Source of the DNA: a bacterium
GTDB lineage: Bacteria; SZUA-182; DTGQ01
DNA length: 47,468 nucleotides
Assembly (NCBI GenBank): GCA_040755755.1
Contig: JBFLZW010000084.1
Span: forward strand, 1-47,468
Direction of reading: 5' to 3'
Within the stretch, counting starts at the first letter, position 1. Each line of letters opens with the position of its first letter. Positions 5,451-14,583 of this stretch are shown here, piece by piece. The notes under the pieces are model-generated. The model did no database searches. It had not been told where the DNA came from and was given only the letters and a program-made list of their open reading frames with translations. The translations under genes and the position numbers were made by a program.

Positions 5451-6227
5451 ATGGCGAAAAACCGGACCGGAAATCGGCCTGATCAGGCTGTCGATATACT
5501 TGAGCGCGGTAATATCTATTTTTTTTACCGTCCGCAGGTGCAGGAGGAATCAGCGCAGGGGCTTTCGGATGTCCAGCGTTTTCAATTCGTACTCGGCCCG
5601 GAGGACAAAGAACGGTATCGGCTGATCACTGTGGGGAAGAAAAGGCTCCCTGAGCCGGAAGAGCATAATAAATACTGGGGTTTTGTGGATCGAGCAGGCT
5701 CGACCGGCGAGCAGATCAGGGATGCGCTGAGGGGAGAAAAATATCAGACCGCAACCCGCGGTGAGCGGGCTCTTCCGGCTGCCCGGCCTGCGGGTGAGGG
5801 TGTATATGCTCTTGCCCGGCATGGCAGTCATACTCATCTGGTGTATATGCTGGAGCTTCCCAAGGGCGTCGGGGAGGTGCAGCGTGCTCTGAACATCGAA
5901 GAGGAAGGAAGCTACATTATCAGTGTCAAAAATCCAGATGTTCCCTCTCAGGCCGGACTTGGTGGGGAGCGAAAACCCGGATTCCCGCCTCAGCTTCGGG
6001 ACAGGTTCAAAGACCAGCGGTGGATCGCCGTTGATCCGCCCGATTTTCTGGATTACGAGGGGGCGGAGCTTTTAATCATCGGCGCTGCCGAGGATGTCGG
6101 CGGGGAGCTTGACATCCGGCTCAGTTCCGAGGATGAGTCCGAAAGTACGGCTGATGTGTTGAATGAATTCCGGCTGCGCAAGTCTGAGCATCCGGTTGAA
6201 CCTCTGCTGAAAGGAAAGTGGGAGTAG
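5451..6227 (+). CDS. Conserved-looking hypothetical protein encoded just ahead of the glucan dikinase
   Basis: A 258-residue soluble protein without signal peptide or membrane segment. GAGGAGGAACAAAGC before the ATG is a strong ribosome binding site. The N-terminal third reads GNIYFFYRPQVQEESAQGL, then VQRFQFVLGPE and YRLITVGKKRLP, followed by YWGFVDRAG. It looks like a folded beta-rich domain, but I do not recognise a family with a known role. The C-terminal part has WIAVDPPDFLDYEGAELLIIGA and an acidic stretch (SSEDESES). Only 15 bp separate its stop from the dikinase start, so the two are almost certainly co-transcribed, which suggests a role in phosphoglucan handling (inference from context only). 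Confidence 0.8.
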   Translation: MAKNRTGNRPDQAVDILERGNIYFFYRPQVQEESAQGLSDVQRFQFVLGPEDKERYRLITVGKKRLPEPEEHNKYWGFVDRAGSTGEQIRDALRGEKYQTATRGERALPAARPAGEGVYALARHGSHTHLVYMLELPKGVGEVQRALNIEEEGSYIISVKNPDVPSQAGLGGERKPGFPPQLRDRFKDQRWIAVDPPDFLDYEGAELLIIGAAEDVGGELDIRLSSEDESESTADVLNEFRLRKSEHPVEPLLKGKWE

Positions 6228-6242: not shown

Positions 6243-9200
6243 ATGAAAGAAATGACCGACAACCCAAAAAATACAGGTTCCTCCCTTCTGGAGGCTGCCA
6301 GAAAACGGATCAGGCGGGAGGATATCTCCTTTGAGCATCTTTATCACCTTGATGACGGCCATGAACTGGCTGTTGTGGTCAGCCATGAGAAAGACCACAG
6401 CCACAGCCAAGAGAAAGGCTACTACCGGATCGTGCTGGCCACCGACATTCCGGGGCCGCTGCTCCTGCACTGGGGAGTGGCCAGGCGGTTTCGCTCCGAA
6501 TGGGTCCTGCCGCCGGAAGAGATACGGCCTGACGGGACGGCTGTTTTCCAAAATGCCGCAGCCCGGACCCCGTTTGCCGACCTGGCAGGCTGCCGGCAAC
6601 TGCACCTTCGGATGAGCGGGCAGGAGGCACCCCTTGGTATTTCCTTTGTGCTCTTTCAGCAGGTTGACCACGGGCAGTGGATCAAGGATCATGGCCGCAA
6701 TTTCACCATTCCGGTCGTTATCCCGCAGGAATACCGGGTGGCTTTCGGCAGTCCTGAACTGGCCACCCTGGCTGAGACCATCATTGACCGGGAGGTCAAC
6801 AGCGGTTCGTGGACCCTGATGCACCGCTTCAACCTCTGTCATGACCTTGTGGACCAGATCGGGAGGGACAACCTCGACGGCCTGGCACTGCTCTTTGTCT
6901 GGCTGCGGTTTTCAGCCATCAGGCAACTGGCCTGGCAGAGAAACTATAACACCAAGCCCAGCGAGCTGAGCCACGCCGAGGACCGCCTGACCCAGAAACT
7001 GGCTGAGCGGTTCACCAGCGCAGGCACCGGAGAGCGCGAACTTATCCGGCTGATGCTGACCACGGTGGGCCGGGGAGGCGAGGGACAGCGGGTCCGCGAT
7101 GAGGTTTTAACCATCATGCACCGCCACGACATCAAGGAGACTTCCGGCCATTTTCTGGAGGAGTGGCATCAGAAGCTCCACAACAACACAACTCCCGACG
7201 ATGTAGTCATCTGCGAGGCCTTTCTGGAGTTTTTGCAGAGCAATGGGAACCGTGACCGATTCTACCAGAGACTCAAAGGGGGCGGGATCACCAAAGAGCG
7301 GCTGGAAAGCTATGAGCGGCCGATCAGGTCTCACCCCGATTTCATGCCGCATCTGAAAGATGCCCTGATCCACGATTTCGAGTATTTTCTGGGGGTCCTC
7401 AAGTCGGTTCACTCCGGCACTGATCTTGGAATTGCCATCCAGGCCGCCCGCTACCTTTTCGATGGCGGGATGCACGGCCTCATGGATTTTATCTGGGCAC
7501 ACCAGGCTGACCCCTGGATGCCGGCAGGCGCCATGGTGGAGAAAATCACCGAAGCCCGAAAGAACCTGACCGGCCGCCTCCAGGGAGGGCCGCCGCCTCA
7601 GGTGCGGGATATGCTCTATCTTGATCTTGCCCTGGAGGATTTCCTGCGGGTCGTGGTGGAGCGGACCTCGTATTCCCGGCTGGAAGGGAATCAGATGGTG
7701 GACTTGACAGGCCTGATTCTTGAAAATCTCATCCTTTCCCGGCAGGATGACGAGCTTTCCGCCATTTTTCACCAATGGAGCCGCCTGCGGCAGATGCCGC
7801 GCTTTGACAGGGAGTGGTCGCTTCGGGCCGAGGCTGCCCTTGGCCGCCTGAGCCGCAACCTCAGCGGCTTTATCGACAGCCTGTATCGCCTCATTCAGCC
7901 CAAGGCCGAGTTTCTCGGACATGCCTTTGGGGCTGATACCTGGACCATCACCCTTTTCAGCGAAGAGGTTGTGCGGGGACGTCCGGCTTTTATCCTGGCT
8001 GTGCTCCTGCGCTCCCTCGATCCAATCCTGCGCCGGAGCGCCAATCTCGGCAACTGGCAGGTTATCAGCCTGAACCGGGTCATAGGCGAGGTGAAAGCGG
8101 TGAAAACCCTGAGATCCATTCAGGCTAAAACCTTTCGCCAGCCAACAATCATCGTGAGCGATCAGATTGACGGCGATGAGAATATTCCGGACGGAGCGAC
8201 TGCGGTCATCACCCCGGATTCGACCGATATCGTCTCCCACGTGGCGATCCGGGCCCGAAATGCGCGGGTTTTGTTTGCCACCTGTTATGAACCTGAGATC
8301 GTCAAACGGCTGAAATCGCTCAAAGGGCAGGTGATTCAACTGAAGGTGGATACCTGCGGTGAGGTGATGATCGAAGAACATCCGAAAGAACGTATTGAAG
8401 CTCCTTCCCTGCGACTGCCAAAGGTCAGGGCACCGCGCTGCCAGCCCGGCTTTACTGCCTATGCGATTCCGATGAGCGATTTCAGCGGGCAGAACGTGGG
8501 GAGTAAATCCAACAACCTGAAACGCCTGCCGGGCAAGGTGCCTGACTGGATCAGCCTTCCCTCGTCAATAGCGCTGCCATACGGAGTGTTTGAAAAGGTC
8601 CTGGATGACGAGCGCAATATCGAGGTATCCGGCCATTACCGGCAATTGAGCAGCCGGATCGATGGGGAGGAAGAGAAAGCCGACCGCACCCTGCTCGATG
8701 AGCTTCAGCGGGCGATCCTGGCCCTCAACGCACCGGATGAACTCATTTCCTCCTTCCGGCGGACCATGGAAGAAGCAGGGCTCCCCTGGCCAGCCACCCC
8801 GCAGGGGGCTGCAAGTTGGGAGGATGCCTGGATGTGCATCAAGAAGGTGTGGGCCTCCAAATGGAACGAACGGGCATACCTGAGCCGCAGGGCACGGGGC
8901 TTTTCCCATAAGGACCTGCATATGGCCGTGCTTATTCAGCGGGTTGTCGAGGCTGAATACAGCTTCGTGATCCATACGGTCAATCCGCTGTCCGGCGACC
9001 GGGACAAGATGTATGCCGAAGCGGTCCTGGGACTTGGAGAGACCCTGGTCGGCGATTATCCCGGCCGTGCCCTCGGCTTTACGTGCGGTAAAGGAGAATG
9101 CTCGCCGCAACTGCTCTCCTTTCCGAGTAAAAGCACGGGCCTTTTTGGCGGCGGCCTGATCTTCCGCTCGGATTTCAGCGGGGAAGACCTTTCAACCTAT

Positions 9201-9458
9201 GCAGGTGCAGGACTCTACAGCAGTATCATGCTCCCGCCGCCCCGCGAAGCTGTCCTTGACTACGCGGGTGAGAAACTGGTGTGGGATGATGCTTTCCGGA
9301 ACGAATTCCTGGCTACTATTTCCCGAATCGGAACAACGATCGAACGGATCTTGGGAGCCCCGCAGGATATTGAAGGGGCCTATTCCAAAGGGCAATATTA
9401 TGTTGTGCAGACCCGGCCACAGGTGGGAGTTGAAAAGGTAGTGGCCAGTGGCCAGTGA
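6243..9458 (+). CDS. Plant-type alpha-glucan water dikinase (GWD)
   Basis: GWD phosphorylates glucosyl residues of starch-like glucan, using ATP and water and releasing AMP and phosphate by way of a phosphohistidine. The 1071-residue protein has a CBM45-like N-terminus (LHWGV..., EWVLPPEEIRPDGT, ARTPF, about 75-125). The GWD core follows: LMHRFNLCHDLVDQ, NYNTKPSELSHAEDRL, GRGGEGQRVRDEVLTIMHRHD, and FLEEWHQKLHNNTTPDDVVI joined to CEAFLEF. The phosphohistidine domain is TPDSTDIVSHVAIRARNARV with H666 as the catalytic residue. The C-terminal nucleotide-binding domain has WASKWNERAYLSRR, FVIHTVNPLSGD, GLGETLVGDYPGRALGF, RSDFSGEDL and GQYYVVQTRPQ. All landmarks of the plant enzyme are present, but only one N-terminal CBM45-like region is seen, against two in plant GWD, and there is no evident transit peptide. 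The ATG at 6255 is an alternative start; GGGGAGGGGGA suits either. The last codons and stop fall in a palindromic repeat. Confidence 0.92.
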   Translation: MKEMTDNPKNTGSSLLEAARKRIRREDISFEHLYHLDDGHELAVVVSHEKDHSHSQEKGYYRIVLATDIPGPLLLHWGVARRFRSEWVLPPEEIRPDGTAVFQNAAARTPFADLAGCRQLHLRMSGQEAPLGISFVLFQQVDHGQWIKDHGRNFTIPVVIPQEYRVAFGSPELATLAETIIDREVNSGSWTLMHRFNLCHDLVDQIGRDNLDGLALLFVWLRFSAIRQLAWQRNYNTKPSELSHAEDRLTQKLAERFTSAGTGERELIRLMLTTVGRGGEGQRVRDEVLTIMHRHDIKETSGHFLEEWHQKLHNNTTPDDVVICEAFLEFLQSNGNRDRFYQRLKGGGITKERLESYERPIRSHPDFMPHLKDALIHDFEYFLGVLKSVHSGTDLGIAIQAARYLFDGGMHGLMDFIWAHQADPWMPAGAMVEKITEARKNLTGRLQGGPPPQVRDMLYLDLALEDFLRVVVERTSYSRLEGNQMVDLTGLILENLILSRQDDELSAIFHQWSRLRQMPRFDREWSLRAEAALGRLSRNLSGFIDSLYRLIQPKAEFLGHAFGADTWTITLFSEEVVRGRPAFILAVLLRSLDPILRRSANLGNWQVISLNRVIGEVKAVKTLRSIQAKTFRQPTIIVSDQIDGDENIPDGATAVITPDSTDIVSHVAIRARNARVLFATCYEPEIVKRLKSLKGQVIQLKVDTCGEVMIEEHPKERIEAPSLRLPKVRAPRCQPGFTAYAIPMSDFSGQNVGSKSNNLKRLPGKVPDWISLPSSIALPYGVFEKVLDDERNIEVSGHYRQLSSRIDGEEEKADRTLLDELQRAILALNAPDELISSFRRTMEEAGLPWPATPQGAASWEDAWMCIKKVWASKWNERAYLSRRARGFSHKDLHMAVLIQRVVEAEYSFVIHTVNPLSGDRDKMYAEAVLGLGETLVGDYPGRALGFTCGKGECSPQLLSFPSKSTGLFGGGLIFRSDFSGEDLSTYAGAGLYSSIMLPPPREAVLDYAGEKLVWDDAFRNEFLATISRIGTTIERILGAPQDIEGAYSKGQYYVVQTRPQVGVEKVVASGQ

Positions 9459-9470
9459 TCACTGGTCACT
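9447..9470. repeat. 24-bp palindromic repeat overlapping the dikinase stop codon
   Basis: AGTGGCCAGTGA and TCACTGGTCACT form an inverted repeat with one mismatch and no loop. The TGA at 9456-9458 that ends the dikinase lies inside it, so its last residues (ASGQ) are repeat-encoded. It belongs to the TGGCCAGTGG family also seen at 5374-5427 and 10923-10997. Confidence 0.75.
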
Positions 9471-9612
9471 TCTCTGCCCGTTTATCCTGTCATTCCCTGT
9501 CGATACGAAATAGTGACCTTTTGTTCAAAATCTATGCTACAATAAGACCTCTCTGGAGCCAAAACCACACGATGCAGGAACGGAACAATTTGCATAAAAG
9601 GAGCAATGTGGC

Positions 9613-10917
9613 ATGAGTAGACCGGAAAAGATGATCATCTACAACCTGTTTCCCCTTCTGGCTGGAAAATTTTCTGACTGGGAAAAACATCTCGATCGAG
9701 CTTCCCAAATGGGTTTCAACTGGATTTTCGTCAATCCCATTCAACGCCCTGGAACGTCAGGCAGTATTTACGGTATAGCGGATTACGCCGATATTAATCC
9801 CCTGCTGATCGATCAGAAGAGCAGCTTAAGTCCTCAGGAGCAGGTCAAGGAAGTCACCAGGACGGCAGGCAGGCTTGGCCTTCGAATGATGGTGGATCTG
9901 GTTATCAATCATTGCAGCGTGGATTCCGACCTCTTGAAGCTGCACCCCGAATGGTTTCTCTGGGAGTCCAAGGGGCATGTTGCTCATCCTTTTGCTGACG
10001 AAAATGGGAAAAAGGTGGTCTGGATGGACCTGGCTCAGTTCGACCTCAAACATACCAGGGACAAGGAAGGTGTTTTTCACTATTTCTTCGGGGTGGTGAA
10101 GTCTCTGGTAGAGCTTGGCTTTACCGGATTTCGCTGCGATGCAGCCTACCAGGTTCCCCGGAATCTGTGGGAGCGGCTCATTCGTGAAACCAGGAAACTG
10201 TATCCGGATGTGCTCTTTTTTGCCGAAACCCTCGGATGTCCGCCGGATCTGACCAGAAACACCGCCAGTGCCGGTTTCGATTACATCTTCAACAGCTCCA
10301 AATGGTGGGATTTCAACAGCCAGTGGCTGATGCAGCAATATGATCTCACCCGGGATATTGCCCCCTCAATCGGCTTCCCTGAGAGTCACGATACAATAAG
10401 GCTCTGTGAGGAGCTCAAGGGCAATATCGACGGACTGAAGCAGCGGTATCTGTTTGCCGCGCTTTTTTCCGGCGGGGTCATGATGCCCATCGGCTTTGAA
10501 TTCGGCTTTCGCAAAAAGCTCCATGTAGCCAAAACCAGGCCTGAAGACTGGGAGGAGACAGACATCGATCTGACTTCCTTCATCACCGCAGTCAACAGGA
10601 TCAAGGCAGCACATGCAATCTTTCAGGAGGATGCTCCCACCGAGATACACCATCATGAAGACAATCATCATGTTTTACTCATGTGGAAAGCATCTACCAG
10701 TGACCGGGAAGAATCGCTGGTCATTCTCAATAAGGATATTCATAACAGGCAGCATTTTCGCACGGAAAGCCTGCAAAAATTCATTCAATCAGGGGCTCCG
10801 CTCAAGGATATCTCCCCGGAATTCACCCTGGATTACATTCCTGTGCCATTTGCCTATGACCTTCGGCCCGGCCAGGGTATTGTGCTGATCACCTCACGGG
10901 ATGCTGTTGCGGGGTGA
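9613..10917 (+). CDS. GH13 (alpha-amylase family) glycoside hydrolase or transglycosylase
   Basis: This 434-residue protein is a compact (beta/alpha)8 GH13 enzyme acting on alpha-glucans. The four conserved regions are visible: DLVINH (95-100), GFRCDAAYQVP with nucleophile D176, FFAETLG with acid/base E205, and FPESHDT with stabiliser D260. Near the N-terminus SIYGIADYADINP resembles the substrate-lid segment of amylases and maltosyltransferases. There is no signal peptide, so it works in the cytoplasm on internal glucan. The GlgE nucleophile motif (RVDNPH) is absent, so it is not a standard GlgE. The exact specificity (hydrolysis or transfer) cannot be read. AGGAGCAATGTGGC precedes the ATG. 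It lies 154 bp after the dikinase and 96 bp before the debranching enzyme, with palindromic repeats in both gaps. Confidence 0.85.
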   Translation: MSRPEKMIIYNLFPLLAGKFSDWEKHLDRASQMGFNWIFVNPIQRPGTSGSIYGIADYADINPLLIDQKSSLSPQEQVKEVTRTAGRLGLRMMVDLVINHCSVDSDLLKLHPEWFLWESKGHVAHPFADENGKKVVWMDLAQFDLKHTRDKEGVFHYFFGVVKSLVELGFTGFRCDAAYQVPRNLWERLIRETRKLYPDVLFFAETLGCPPDLTRNTASAGFDYIFNSSKWWDFNSQWLMQQYDLTRDIAPSIGFPESHDTIRLCEELKGNIDGLKQRYLFAALFSGGVMMPIGFEFGFRKKLHVAKTRPEDWEETDIDLTSFITAVNRIKAAHAIFQEDAPTEIHHHEDNHHVLLMWKASTSDREESLVILNKDIHNRQHFRTESLQKFIQSGAPLKDISPEFTLDYIPVPFAYDLRPGQGIVLITSRDAVAG

Positions 10918-10922
10918 AAAGA

Positions 10923-10997
10923 AGTGGTCAGTGGAAGGTGTCCCTGCATTAGGGGCGAGGGAGAAAAGGTGCCCCTGGCCCCTGGCCACTGACCACT
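10923..10997. repeat. Repeat element with perfect 12-bp inverted ends
   Basis: AGTGGTCAGTGG (10923-10934) is the exact reverse complement of CCACTGACCACT (10986-10997). The 75-bp element fills most of the gap between the GH13 gene and the debranching-enzyme gene. It looks like a small REP/MITE-like unit of the same family as 9447-9470. Confidence 0.75.
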
Positions 10998-11013
10998 AAA
11001 CTGAGACTGTCCT

Positions 11014-13203
11014 ATGGAGCATGCCACAGCCGGAAATATTTTCCCCAGTCCGCCCATCAGGAGAATGTCCTGGGCAAGGGCTGAAACCGATTCAAGCCCG
11101 CTTCTCAACCGCGAATGGCTGGTAGCCAATGGCCTTGGCGGCTACGCATCGGCTACTGTTTCCGGGGTATGCACCCGGAAATATCACGGCCTCCTGATTG
11201 CGGCTCTGCCTGCTCGCCGGGGCCGACTGGTGATGCTTACCAATCTTTTGGAAGAGATAGCGTTTACTGACGGCAGGGTGGTCGAATTGGGAAATGAGGA
11301 GCGGGCCGAAGGAAATTTTTGGAAAGAGGGCTTGGAAGAGGACTCTTCGCGAGAGAAACCGCCGGGAGAAAACCCTCCGTCAGGGAATCATCCCGGAGGA
11401 AAGCTGCATCTGCCCGGAGCCGGGTTTCTTCGGGAATTCAGGCTTGAGAGCGGGCTTCCCGTGTGGCGCTTCGAAGTGGAGGGGCTGGTTGTTGAGAAAA
11501 GAGTTTTCCTTTCCTACCTGCACAATACCGTCTTTATCAATTACCGGCTGATTTCAGGCAGCAGGCCGTTCCGGCTTCGGCTTCGGCCCTTCATGCACTT
11601 TCGTCCGATCCATGACGAGGTGGATACAAGCCTTCAGACCCCTTATACTATGAAGGTCATGAGGAACTGGATCGAGATCAGGGCGGATGGAGATTTCCCC
11701 TCGCTCCGCCTCGTGCTGCATGGCCGGGAGAACTCACTGAATCTGATTGGCAGGGGATTCAGAGGTGTCTATTACCGGGTTGAGCACGAGCGGGGCTACC
11801 CCTGCCTGGGCACGCTCTGGGGTCCTGGCTCCCTGGAGGCAGCGATGGGAAATGACGGTGATAACAGTGGTGATGAAGTAGCGCTGATGGCCTCCACGGA
11901 AAGCTGGGAGGTTATGCTGGCCCAAAAGTCCCGGGAAGCCTTCAGGTCGGAGATCGAGCGGCGGCAGCGGCTTCTGGCCGCAGCCTGGCCGCAGGTGCGG
12001 TCAGGCCCGGCATCGGAGCTCGTCCTTGCGGCTGACCAGTTCATCGTCACTCCCGGCTTCCGGATAGCTGATAACGCCCCAGACCTTGCCACGACCGATG
12101 AGCGGGGGCGTACCATTATGGCGGGTTATCACTGGTTTACCGACTGGGGCCGCGACACCATGATCAGCCTTGAGGGGCTCACCCTGATCACCGGACGTCA
12201 GGCCGAGGCAGCATATATCCTGCAAAGCTTTGCCCGCCACATTCGCCACGGCCTCATTCCCAATGTTTTTCCCGAAGGCCGGTCACAGGGAGAGTATAAC
12301 ACGGCTGATGCCACCCTCTGGTTCTTCCAGGCCCTTTCGGACTATCTTCTGGTCAGCGGGGACCAGTCTATGCTGAGTAATCTCCTGCCCCTGCTTTTTG
12401 AAATCGTCAATCATCACCTGGCCGGAACCTGCTTTGGCATCGGCGTCGATCCGGGAGACGGGCTTCTGAGACAGGGCGAGGCCGGCTATCAGCTCACCTG
12501 GATGGATGCCAAGGTGGGCGACTGGGTAGTTACTCCGCGACGCGGCAAAGCGGTTGAGATCAATGCGCTCTGGTACAATGCCCTGTGCCTCCTGGGGCAG
12601 TGGGTGACAAGGGAGCGGGGGGCAAAGGAAGCCCAACCGATTGCCAGACTGGCCGAATGGGTCTATGATTCCTTTAACCGCCGTTTCTGGTATGAGGAAG
12701 GAAATTACCTGTATGATGTCGTTGATGGTGAAGCCGGTGATGACGCCTCACTTCGCCCCAATCAGATTCTGGCCATATCCCTGCCCAATCCGGTGCTCGA
12801 TCCCGACCGGTGGGAATCTGTCCTCCAAACCGTCCGAAAGGAGCTTCTCACCCCCTTCGGGCTGAGGTCCCTGGCTCCCGGACATCCGGACTACCGGCAA
12901 AGATGCTGCGGAGACATCCGGCAACGCGATGCAGCCTATCATCAGGGAACTGTCTGGTCCTGGCTCATCGGCCCCTTCATCGACGCCTGGCTCAAGGTTT
13001 ACCCTGATGACCGGTCAGGAGGCAGGCACTTTCTCGATGGATTGATCGCTCACCTCGATGATGCCTGCCTTGGATCGATCAGCGAGATTTTCGATGCAGA
13101 GCCGCCATTCAATTGCAGAGGATGCGTGTCGCAGGCCTGGAGCGTCGCTCAAATGCTTCACTGCTGGGTGAAAACCACCGCCAGTGGCCGAAACACCACA
13201 TGA
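11014..13203 (+). CDS. Glycogen debranching enzyme (amylo-alpha-1,6-glucosidase type, GH133)
   Basis: A 729-residue protein in two parts. The N-terminal bacterial/archaeal GDE domain (about 25-300) shows NREWLVANGLGGYASATVSG, TRKYHGLLIAALPARRG and LVMLTNLLEEI. The C-terminal (alpha/alpha)6 amylo-alpha-1,6-glucosidase domain (about 330-720) shows GYHWFTDWGRDTMISLEGL (DWGRD at 377-381), GLIPNVFPEG, ADATLWFFQAL, VEINALWYNAL and LRPNQILAISLP. It should release glucose from alpha-1,6 branch stubs of glycogen-like polymer in the cytoplasm. A low-complexity Glu/Pro/Gly insert lies at about 105-130. No strong ribosome binding site precedes the ATG, and a start a few codons downstream near 11065 is possible. 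A separate GlgX-type debrancher survives only as a fragment at 861-1199, so this enzyme may be the working one here. Confidence 0.9.
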   Translation: MEHATAGNIFPSPPIRRMSWARAETDSSPLLNREWLVANGLGGYASATVSGVCTRKYHGLLIAALPARRGRLVMLTNLLEEIAFTDGRVVELGNEERAEGNFWKEGLEEDSSREKPPGENPPSGNHPGGKLHLPGAGFLREFRLESGLPVWRFEVEGLVVEKRVFLSYLHNTVFINYRLISGSRPFRLRLRPFMHFRPIHDEVDTSLQTPYTMKVMRNWIEIRADGDFPSLRLVLHGRENSLNLIGRGFRGVYYRVEHERGYPCLGTLWGPGSLEAAMGNDGDNSGDEVALMASTESWEVMLAQKSREAFRSEIERRQRLLAAAWPQVRSGPASELVLAADQFIVTPGFRIADNAPDLATTDERGRTIMAGYHWFTDWGRDTMISLEGLTLITGRQAEAAYILQSFARHIRHGLIPNVFPEGRSQGEYNTADATLWFFQALSDYLLVSGDQSMLSNLLPLLFEIVNHHLAGTCFGIGVDPGDGLLRQGEAGYQLTWMDAKVGDWVVTPRRGKAVEINALWYNALCLLGQWVTRERGAKEAQPIARLAEWVYDSFNRRFWYEEGNYLYDVVDGEAGDDASLRPNQILAISLPNPVLDPDRWESVLQTVRKELLTPFGLRSLAPGHPDYRQRCCGDIRQRDAAYHQGTVWSWLIGPFIDAWLKVYPDDRSGGRHFLDGLIAHLDDACLGSISEIFDAEPPFNCRGCVSQAWSVAQMLHCWVKTTASGRNTT

Positions 13204-13248
13204 AAAAGGGGAAATGGGGAACCCGTTGAGTTATTCTCTCATGCTTTT

Positions 13249-13292
13249 CTCTGTGCCTTTGCTTTTCTGTGCCTCTGTGCCTGAGTAGTTTT
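13249..13292. repeat. Dispersed TGTGCCTTTGTG-type repeat, copy 2
   Basis: CTCTGTGCCTTTG and CTGTGCCTCTGTGCCTGAG are followed by TAGTT, the same ending as copy 1 at 4047-4108. It lies between the debranching enzyme and alcohol dehydrogenase genes and may break co-transcription. Confidence 0.6.
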
Positions 13293-13368
13293 CCATAACC
13301 AACTGATAAACATAGAGCTAATCCTGATAACTTCAGGTAATGCCTTAATCAGATAAGGAGATTAAACC

Positions 13369-14583
13369 ATGCAAGCTGTTGTTTTTCATTCAATCGGTGA
13401 TATTCGCCTTGAAGATGTGCCTGAGCCGATGATTCAGAAACCTACCGATGCCATCGTGAGACTCACGGCCACTTCGATCTGCGGGACGGACCTGCACATG
13501 ATTCGCGGCACAATGGGTGTGATGGAGCCGGGCACGATCATGGGCCATGAGGGTGTCGGCATTGTCGAGGATATCGGCTCCGATGTCAGGAACCTGAGCA
13601 TCGGCGACCGGGTCGTTATTCCATCCACGATTGCCTGTGGTTATTGTGCCTACTGCCGGGCCGGTTATTACGCCCAGTGCGACAATGCCAACCCGAACGG
13701 GAAGCGGGCCGGGACCGCCTTTTTCGGGGGGCCGAAGATGTCCGGACCCTTCCACGGTCTTCAGGCCGAACGGGCCCGTATTCCCTTTGCCAACGTCGGA
13801 CTGCAGAAGATCCCCGAAGGGATGACGGACGAGGAAGCCATTCTGATTTCCGATGCCTTTCCTACGGGCTATTTTGGGGCAAAACTGGCTGAAATCAAAG
13901 CCGGTGATACCGTTGCCGTCTTCGGATGCGGGGTCGTTGGCCAAATGGCCATTGCCAGTGCCAAACTCCTGGGAGCCGGCCGTATTCTGGCTGTGGACCA
14001 TATTCCTTCCCGGCTCCAGATGGCCAGGGATCAGGGGGCTGAGATCATTGACTTCAATGCCGAGGATCCGGTTGAAACAATCCTGAATCTCACCGGCGGC
14101 ATCGGCGTTGACCGGATAATCGATGCAGTCGGGGTCGATGCCCAGCGTCCGCAGCGGGGCCCGGCAGCAGCGAAGGCCGACCAAAAGTCCGAGCAGTTCC
14201 GGTGGGAGATCCGGCAGGTCGCTCCCCATGCCAATCCGCGCGGCGAGCTCTGGAAGCCGGGAGATGCACCCTCGCAGGCACTTGAGTGGGAAGTGGAAGC
14301 CCTGGACAAGGCGGGAACACTCTCTGTTATCGGGGTTTATCCAGAGACGGTCTGCTTCTTCCCCTTCGGTGTCTCGATGAATAAAAACATCACCGTGAAC
14401 ATGGGAAACTGCAATCACCGCAAGTATATTCCGATGCTCATAGACATAGTCGAAAGCGGCATTATCGATCTGCCGGAGCTTCCCACTCAGGTTGAGCCTT
14501 TCAGCAAAATTATCGATGCCTACAGGGCCTTTGACCTGCGGGAGCCGGGCTGGATCAAAGTGGAGCTGGTGTTTGGCAGATGA
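13369..14583 (+). CDS. Zinc-dependent alcohol dehydrogenase, GSH-independent formaldehyde dehydrogenase-like (MDR family)
   Basis: This 404-residue medium-chain dehydrogenase oxidises an alcohol or aldehyde hydrate with NAD(P). The catalytic zinc site is shown by SICGTDLHM and IMGHEGVGIVEDIG. The structural zinc loop reads CGYCAYCRAGYYAQC (four Cys). The cofactor-binding Rossmann turn is FGCGVVG, with D in LAVDHIP favouring NAD(H). An insertion at about 255-305 (PQRGPAAAKADQKSEQ onwards) is typical of the glutathione-independent formaldehyde dehydrogenase / alcohol dehydrogenase subgroup. AAGGAGATTAAACC precedes the ATG. It follows the glucan genes after 165 bp and a repeat, so it may be a separate unit. 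The true substrate is not readable. Confidence 0.88.
   Translation: MQAVVFHSIGDIRLEDVPEPMIQKPTDAIVRLTATSICGTDLHMIRGTMGVMEPGTIMGHEGVGIVEDIGSDVRNLSIGDRVVIPSTIACGYCAYCRAGYYAQCDNANPNGKRAGTAFFGGPKMSGPFHGLQAERARIPFANVGLQKIPEGMTDEEAILISDAFPTGYFGAKLAEIKAGDTVAVFGCGVVGQMAIASAKLLGAGRILAVDHIPSRLQMARDQGAEIIDFNAEDPVETILNLTGGIGVDRIIDAVGVDAQRPQRGPAAAKADQKSEQFRWEIRQVAPHANPRGELWKPGDAPSQALEWEVEALDKAGTLSVIGVYPETVCFFPFGVSMNKNITVNMGNCNHRKYIPMLIDIVESGIIDLPELPTQVEPFSKIIDAYRAFDLREPGWIKVELVFGR

Follow-up and report, generated by a model that had tools for sequence, protein, structure and literature searches.

The glucan water dikinase gene and its operon

The stretch of DNA analysed here (the window) spans 47,468 nucleotides of a bacterial genome, contig JBFLZW010000084.1 of assembly GCA_040755755.1, and carries near one end an alpha-glucan water dikinase (GWD) gene followed by two genes for glucan-active enzymes:

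5451 to 6227, plus strand: unassigned open reading frame of 258 aa, 15 bp upstream of the GWD gene
6243 to 9458, plus strand: GWD gene, ATG start, 1071 aa, no internal stop; PF23166, PF22973 and PF01326
6336 to 6716 (aa 32-158), plus strand: CBM45 / Ig-like starch-binding domain, one copy; PF23166, 9.1e-25
6747 to 8045 (aa 169-601), plus strand: GWD central helical domain with EWHQKLHNNTTPDDVV; aligns over its whole length with plant GWD structure 9ha9
8052 to 8387 (aa 604-715), plus strand: phosphohistidine domain; PF22973 (GWD1_pHisD), 7.8e-37; catalytic histidine H666, codon 8238-8240
8835 to 9425 (aa 865-1061), plus strand: C-terminal ATP-grasp half, in the permuted GWD1 order; PF01326 (PPDK_N), 3e-27
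9613 to 10917, plus strand: GH13 glucan hydrolase or transferase, 434 aa; PF14701 (hDGE_amylase), 2e-21, and PF00128
11014 to 13203, plus strand: amylo-1,6-glucosidase / archaeal-type debranching enzyme (GDE), 729 aa; PF06202, 3e-120, PF12439, and TIGR01561 over its cut-off

By its domains and motifs, the frame at 6243 to 9458 encodes an intact bacterial GWD of plant GWD1 architecture. Its ATG follows a purine-rich GGGGAGGGGG, a possible ribosome-binding site, and the large antisense reading frames across the gene look like shadow ORFs. An earlier note on this DNA had listed the GWD landmark motifs, and all of them are present in the unbroken frame: a motif check of the translation places EWHQKLHNNTTPDDVVI at residues 307-323, SHVAIRARN carries H666, VWASKWNERAY spans residues 869-879, and RSDFSGEDL spans residues 975-983. 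The CBM45-like N-terminus claimed in that note corresponds to PF23166, whose Pfam name is 'Alpha-glucan water dikinase 1 Ig-like N-terminal domain', and Pfam likewise confirms the GH13 and debranching neighbours. The Pfam and PDB matches of the GWD and its neighbours are far beyond chance. In a PDB sequence search, the best matches of the window GWD are the chloroplastic central domains 9ha9 and 9qvi (~1e-88); the former, from a chloroplastic alpha-glucan water dikinase, matches residues 169-601 at 1.8e-88, with 41% identity over 422 columns.

Plant GWD1 has a permuted ATP-grasp, with KVWASKW before RSDSNGEDL, while plant phosphoglucan water dikinase (PWD) has the plain order. In the window GWD the motifs run VWASKW (869), RSDFSGED (975), QDIEG and QTRPQ, and the PF01326 match starts at profile position 138. 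Residues H666, R975, D977, E981, D982, Q1041, D1042, E1044 and Q1056 are invariant across 35 aligned bacterial GWDs. The enzyme resembles plant and algal GWD1 (EC 2.7.9.4) in its catalytic motifs and in the order CBM45, central helical, phosphohistidine and permuted ATP-grasp domains, but it has one CBM45 copy where the plant enzyme has two, belongs to an operon that also encodes GH13 and GDE, and has no place for the role of the plant transit peptide. Since the PPDK_N ATP-grasp domain is common to this protein and to PEP synthase/PPDK, a member of that family might have been mislabelled as GWD. The probability of such an error is close to nil: the protein has no PEP/pyruvate-binding domain, the ATP-grasp is the sole match, and GWD-specific domains fill the remainder of its length. 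The NCBIfam models for PEP synthase score 22-75 bits where their cut-offs demand 598-1063, and their best stretches span ~58-75 residues.

An AlphaFold model of the window GWD, built from 35 bacterial sequences, reached pLDDT 86 and pTM 0.81. The top Foldseek matches of this model are rifampin phosphotransferase structures, including an isolated ATP-binding domain; the plant GWD central-domain structure is absent among the listed Foldseek matches, yet is the top match by sequence. That the ATP-grasp half is nearest in fold to rifampin phosphotransferase, and that the GH13 partner is similar to small amylases and GlgE-like enzymes, would fit an operon for oligosaccharide processing, in which the dikinase acceptor is a soluble maltodextrin, a sugar or a small molecule. 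We judge this improbable, given that a CBM45-type polymer-binding domain is present in 34 of the 35 bacterial GWDs (in two copies in at least one, at locus L063), that the plant GWD central domain is matched over its full length, and that the window GWD carries no other phosphotransferase acceptor domain.

The gaps in the operon measure 154 bp between GWD and GH13 and 96 bp between GH13 and GDE. The 258-aa frame upstream is probably co-transcribed with GWD; it has no Pfam or NCBIfam match, and no relative of it lies beside other GWD loci. Base composition is uneven: the GWD, GDE and dehydrogenase genes within 6243-14583 have a GC content of ~58%, against 50% for the whole window, while GH13, between GWD and GDE, has 51%. 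A mixed origin of this operon is possible, and the higher GC content of GWD hints at recent acquisition. GWD also seems dispensable in this family of bacteria, since no match to it was seen in three sampled draft relatives.

GWD is widespread in bacteria

GWD has been held to be confined to starch makers, with an origin proposed to accompany the primary plastid (PMC6260743). The GWD tree in that 2018 Goniomonas genome paper (Fig. 9) resembles our results in including homologues from some bacteria, which the main text reads as possible lateral gene transfer (LGT), but it is presented without gene clusters, PWD-type partners, phosphatase candidates or breadth over 10 phyla. Two peptide patterns, scanned once against ~85,000 genomes of prokaryote species, gave at least 110 confirmed bacterial GWD relatives; the best 80, which we kept, cover at least 10 phyla. 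Among these 80 of at least 110, Nitrospirota contribute 36, Thermodesulfobacteriota (Desulfobacterota) 9, Myxococcota 9, Pseudomonadota 6, Verrucomicrobiota 6, Planctomycetota 4 (including anammox bacteria) and Acidobacteriota 2, with others making up the rest. In an even sample of Nitrospirota (the phylum of locus L067), 23 of 296 genomes score above the Pfam cut-off; among 14 well-known control genomes there is none. The earlier note had treated a bacterial GWD as unusual, and the number of relatives, together with the bacteria already in the published tree, removes the sense of an isolated oddity.

Sequence comparison places the window GWD in this broad bacterial family, its nearest relatives being bacterial. 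It shares 43-63% identity with the 35 aligned bacterial GWDs, while the plant GWD central domain is 41-44% identical to it and to the closest bacterial GWDs, and 25% identical to the short paralogue in the same genome. 'Plant-type', the term used in the earlier note, therefore holds for architecture and not for origin. In a phylogenetic tree, plant GWD, represented by a single 450-residue fragment from a PDB alignment on a long branch, falls within a poorly resolved bush of bacterial GWDs, while the PWD-type enzymes form a separate group with strong support. With this one fragment both placements are compatible with the data (p-AU 0.506 for a group of bacterial GWDs only and 0.444 for one that also takes in the plant sequence).

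These comparisons bear on whether the gene could be a recently transferred eukaryotic (algal) GWD with no established role in the bacterium. The GC and GC3 of GWD lie above those of neighbouring core genes, GWD was not found in the three draft sister genomes, and LGT has been proposed for some bacterial GWDs (2018, PMC6260743). We nevertheless consider an algal transfer very unlikely: the closest relatives are bacterial (up to 63% identity) and come with a GH13 operon partner at ~67% identity, bacterial diversity extends over 10 phyla, and the frame is intact with its catalytic residues complete. If a transfer did take place, it more likely brought in a bacterial glucan module than an algal GWD.

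Bacterial GWD genes lie in conserved glucan clusters

Gene context was counted at the 68 usable loci, those with at least 1.5 kb downstream of GWD. A PWD-type dikinase, a TIM barrel (PF01261) and/or the GH13 found in the window lies downstream of GWD in 50 of the 68, without exception on the GWD strand, the genes often overlapping or nearly touching. In 21 other loci, GWD has a homologue of the window's GH13 downstream on its own strand (median identity 67%), and genes for GT5 synthase, GH57 branching enzyme, GH57-DUF3536, GH77 and DUF4912 occur near GWD in several. This conserved context links the dikinases with the metabolism of stored alpha-glucan.

The TIM barrel, which is endonuclease-IV-like, is encoded either as a separate gene of ~270 aa or, often, as the N-terminus of the PWD-type dikinase; such fusions (L063:611-4159, L034:11110-14571 and others) are kept across several phyla. 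Its residues H71, H105, E136, D169, H172, H198, D209, H211 and E245 are kept in all 12 aligned sequences, and its PDB profile matches are MJ1311, which is uncharacterised, and endonuclease IV only. Endonuclease IV is a metal phosphoesterase, and we take the nine invariant residues to fit its nine metal ligands. The TIM barrel may instead be a sugar isomerase, because the isomerase family has much of the same ligand set.

A second conserved protein of ~350 aa (L063:4561-5592 and relatives) adjoins the PWD-type dikinase, has no Pfam match and looks TIM-barrel-like; in L054 it is fused to GH13 (782 aa). We found no description of bacterial GWD/PWD gene clusters in the open-access papers searched. 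The presence of GWD in bacteria was already known; what does appear new is the conserved cluster in which dikinases occur with candidate phosphatases.

A PWD-type dikinase and a candidate glucan phosphatase

The genome that contains the window encodes two further dikinases, one of them followed by a phosphatase gene:

L023:5977-8751, contig C22: third dikinase, GWD-ordered, without CBM45; on a very long branch, and also in two related genomes
L024:7499-10576, contig C1: PWD-type dikinase, with RSSSNAED (822) before VWASQW (857), SHFGIRAR, and PF22973 at 2e-18
L024:10672-11877, contig C1: P0002, a dual-specificity phosphatase (DSP) directly after the PWD-type gene; PF00782, 1.3e-12
L024:11963-13195: radical SAM gene after P0002; homologues in L025, L026 and L029

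In PWD-type dikinases RSSxxxED precedes VWAS, the reverse of the GWD-type order. The paralogue on contig C1 matches PWD (EC 2.7.9.5) in this unpermuted arrangement and in SHFGIRAR, but it has an Ig/CBM45-like PF23166 domain in place of the CBM20 of plant PWD, which was not detected, and the PWD-type enzymes of other phyla differ from PWD in being fused to a TIM barrel. Together with the phosphatase candidate linked to it, this paralogue, which lies outside the window, is more surprising than the GWD itself.

P0002 resembles laforin, SEX4 and LSF2 in its phosphatase loop (C221RAGIGR, within CRAGIGRS) and in having an extra N-terminal domain. The C-x-A-G-[aliphatic]-G-R motif is kept in four genomes; the loop CxAGxGR is not specific to glucan phosphatases, as the archaeal-type PTP 5z5b has CMAGLGR. 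Unlike laforin and SEX4, P0002 has a DSP domain closest to archaeal and general DSPs: its best PDB matches are PTP 5z5b and general DSPs, with no laforin or SEX4 chain up to E 0.01. The N-terminal domain, Ig-like, ~125 aa long and with conserved tryptophan residues, matches no known CBM; searches of Pfam, the PDB and a CBM45 profile gave no match, and its identification as a CBM45 or as a homologue of a solved structure was dropped, no homology being detected. An AlphaFold model of P0002, at pLDDT 52 from four sequences, was set aside.

Distribution associates this protein with the dikinases. The P0002-type N-terminal domain occurs in all four genomes with dikinases and is absent from the five relatives that lack them. 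This genome shares the order PWD-type dikinase, DSP, radical SAM with the three others sampled from its family, in which the gaps measure ~9 to 93 bp. Near other bacterial GWDs, no CxAGxGR loop was found outside the window's family; within it, the TIM-barrel partner is absent apart from distant, 32%-identical homologues. That this family has a DSP in place of the TIM barrel found elsewhere suggests that the two do the same job. On this evidence we regard P0002 as a candidate bacterial glucan phosphatase.

Discussion

We consider it highly probable that the window encodes a genuine GWD that phosphorylates an internal storage alpha-glucan within a bacterial glucan-phosphorylation system. The earlier note had suggested that this bacterium phosphorylates a storage glucan, and this stands as the best reading, because the genome encodes a GT5 glycogen/starch synthase as well as a glucan phosphorylase; the note's further idea, that the polymer might be starch-like, is speculative. 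The gene, its domains and catalytic residues, its family, operon partners and conserved linkage are observed, whereas the substrate, the C6 position, the physiological role and the phosphatase role we infer. GWD places phosphate at C6, and PWD at C3 on pre-phosphorylated glucan (PMC13011383). By analogy, we propose that the CBM45 domain would hold intracellular alpha-glucan while H666 of the phosphohistidine domain accepts the beta-phosphate of ATP; the phosphate would then pass to glucosyl C6, with release of AMP and phosphate. Phosphorylation would loosen ordered chains, so that the GH13 enzyme, the GDE debranching enzyme and glucan phosphorylase could degrade them. The GWD would belong to a bacterial system for glucan phosphorylation in which a PWD-type dikinase is often present; in this genome the PWD-type gene lies apart from GWD and adjoins the candidate glucan phosphatase.

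A wider reading is that bacteria possess a full, reversible, plant-like glucan-phosphorylation cycle, with GWD- and PWD-type dikinases and a dedicated phosphatase, a DSP in the window's lineage and a TIM barrel in other phyla. We put this forward tentatively and rate it somewhat short of probable. A 2009 survey judged a bacterial glucan phosphatase unlikely (PMC2714694), and the P0002 and TIM-barrel candidates bear directly on that judgement. If the wider reading is true, such a phosphatase would exist in bacteria, and the TIM barrel would represent a new phosphatase fold for glucans.

With the bacterial dikinases, the origin of those that act on starch can be put to the test, and these compact enzymes may be of use for study and for starch modification. 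The set of GWD, PWD-type dikinase and candidate phosphatase genes, scattered among bacteria but conserved and linked to genes for GT5, GH57, GH77, GH13 and GDE, would mean that storage glucans are phosphorylated, and perhaps dephosphorylated, by bacteria.
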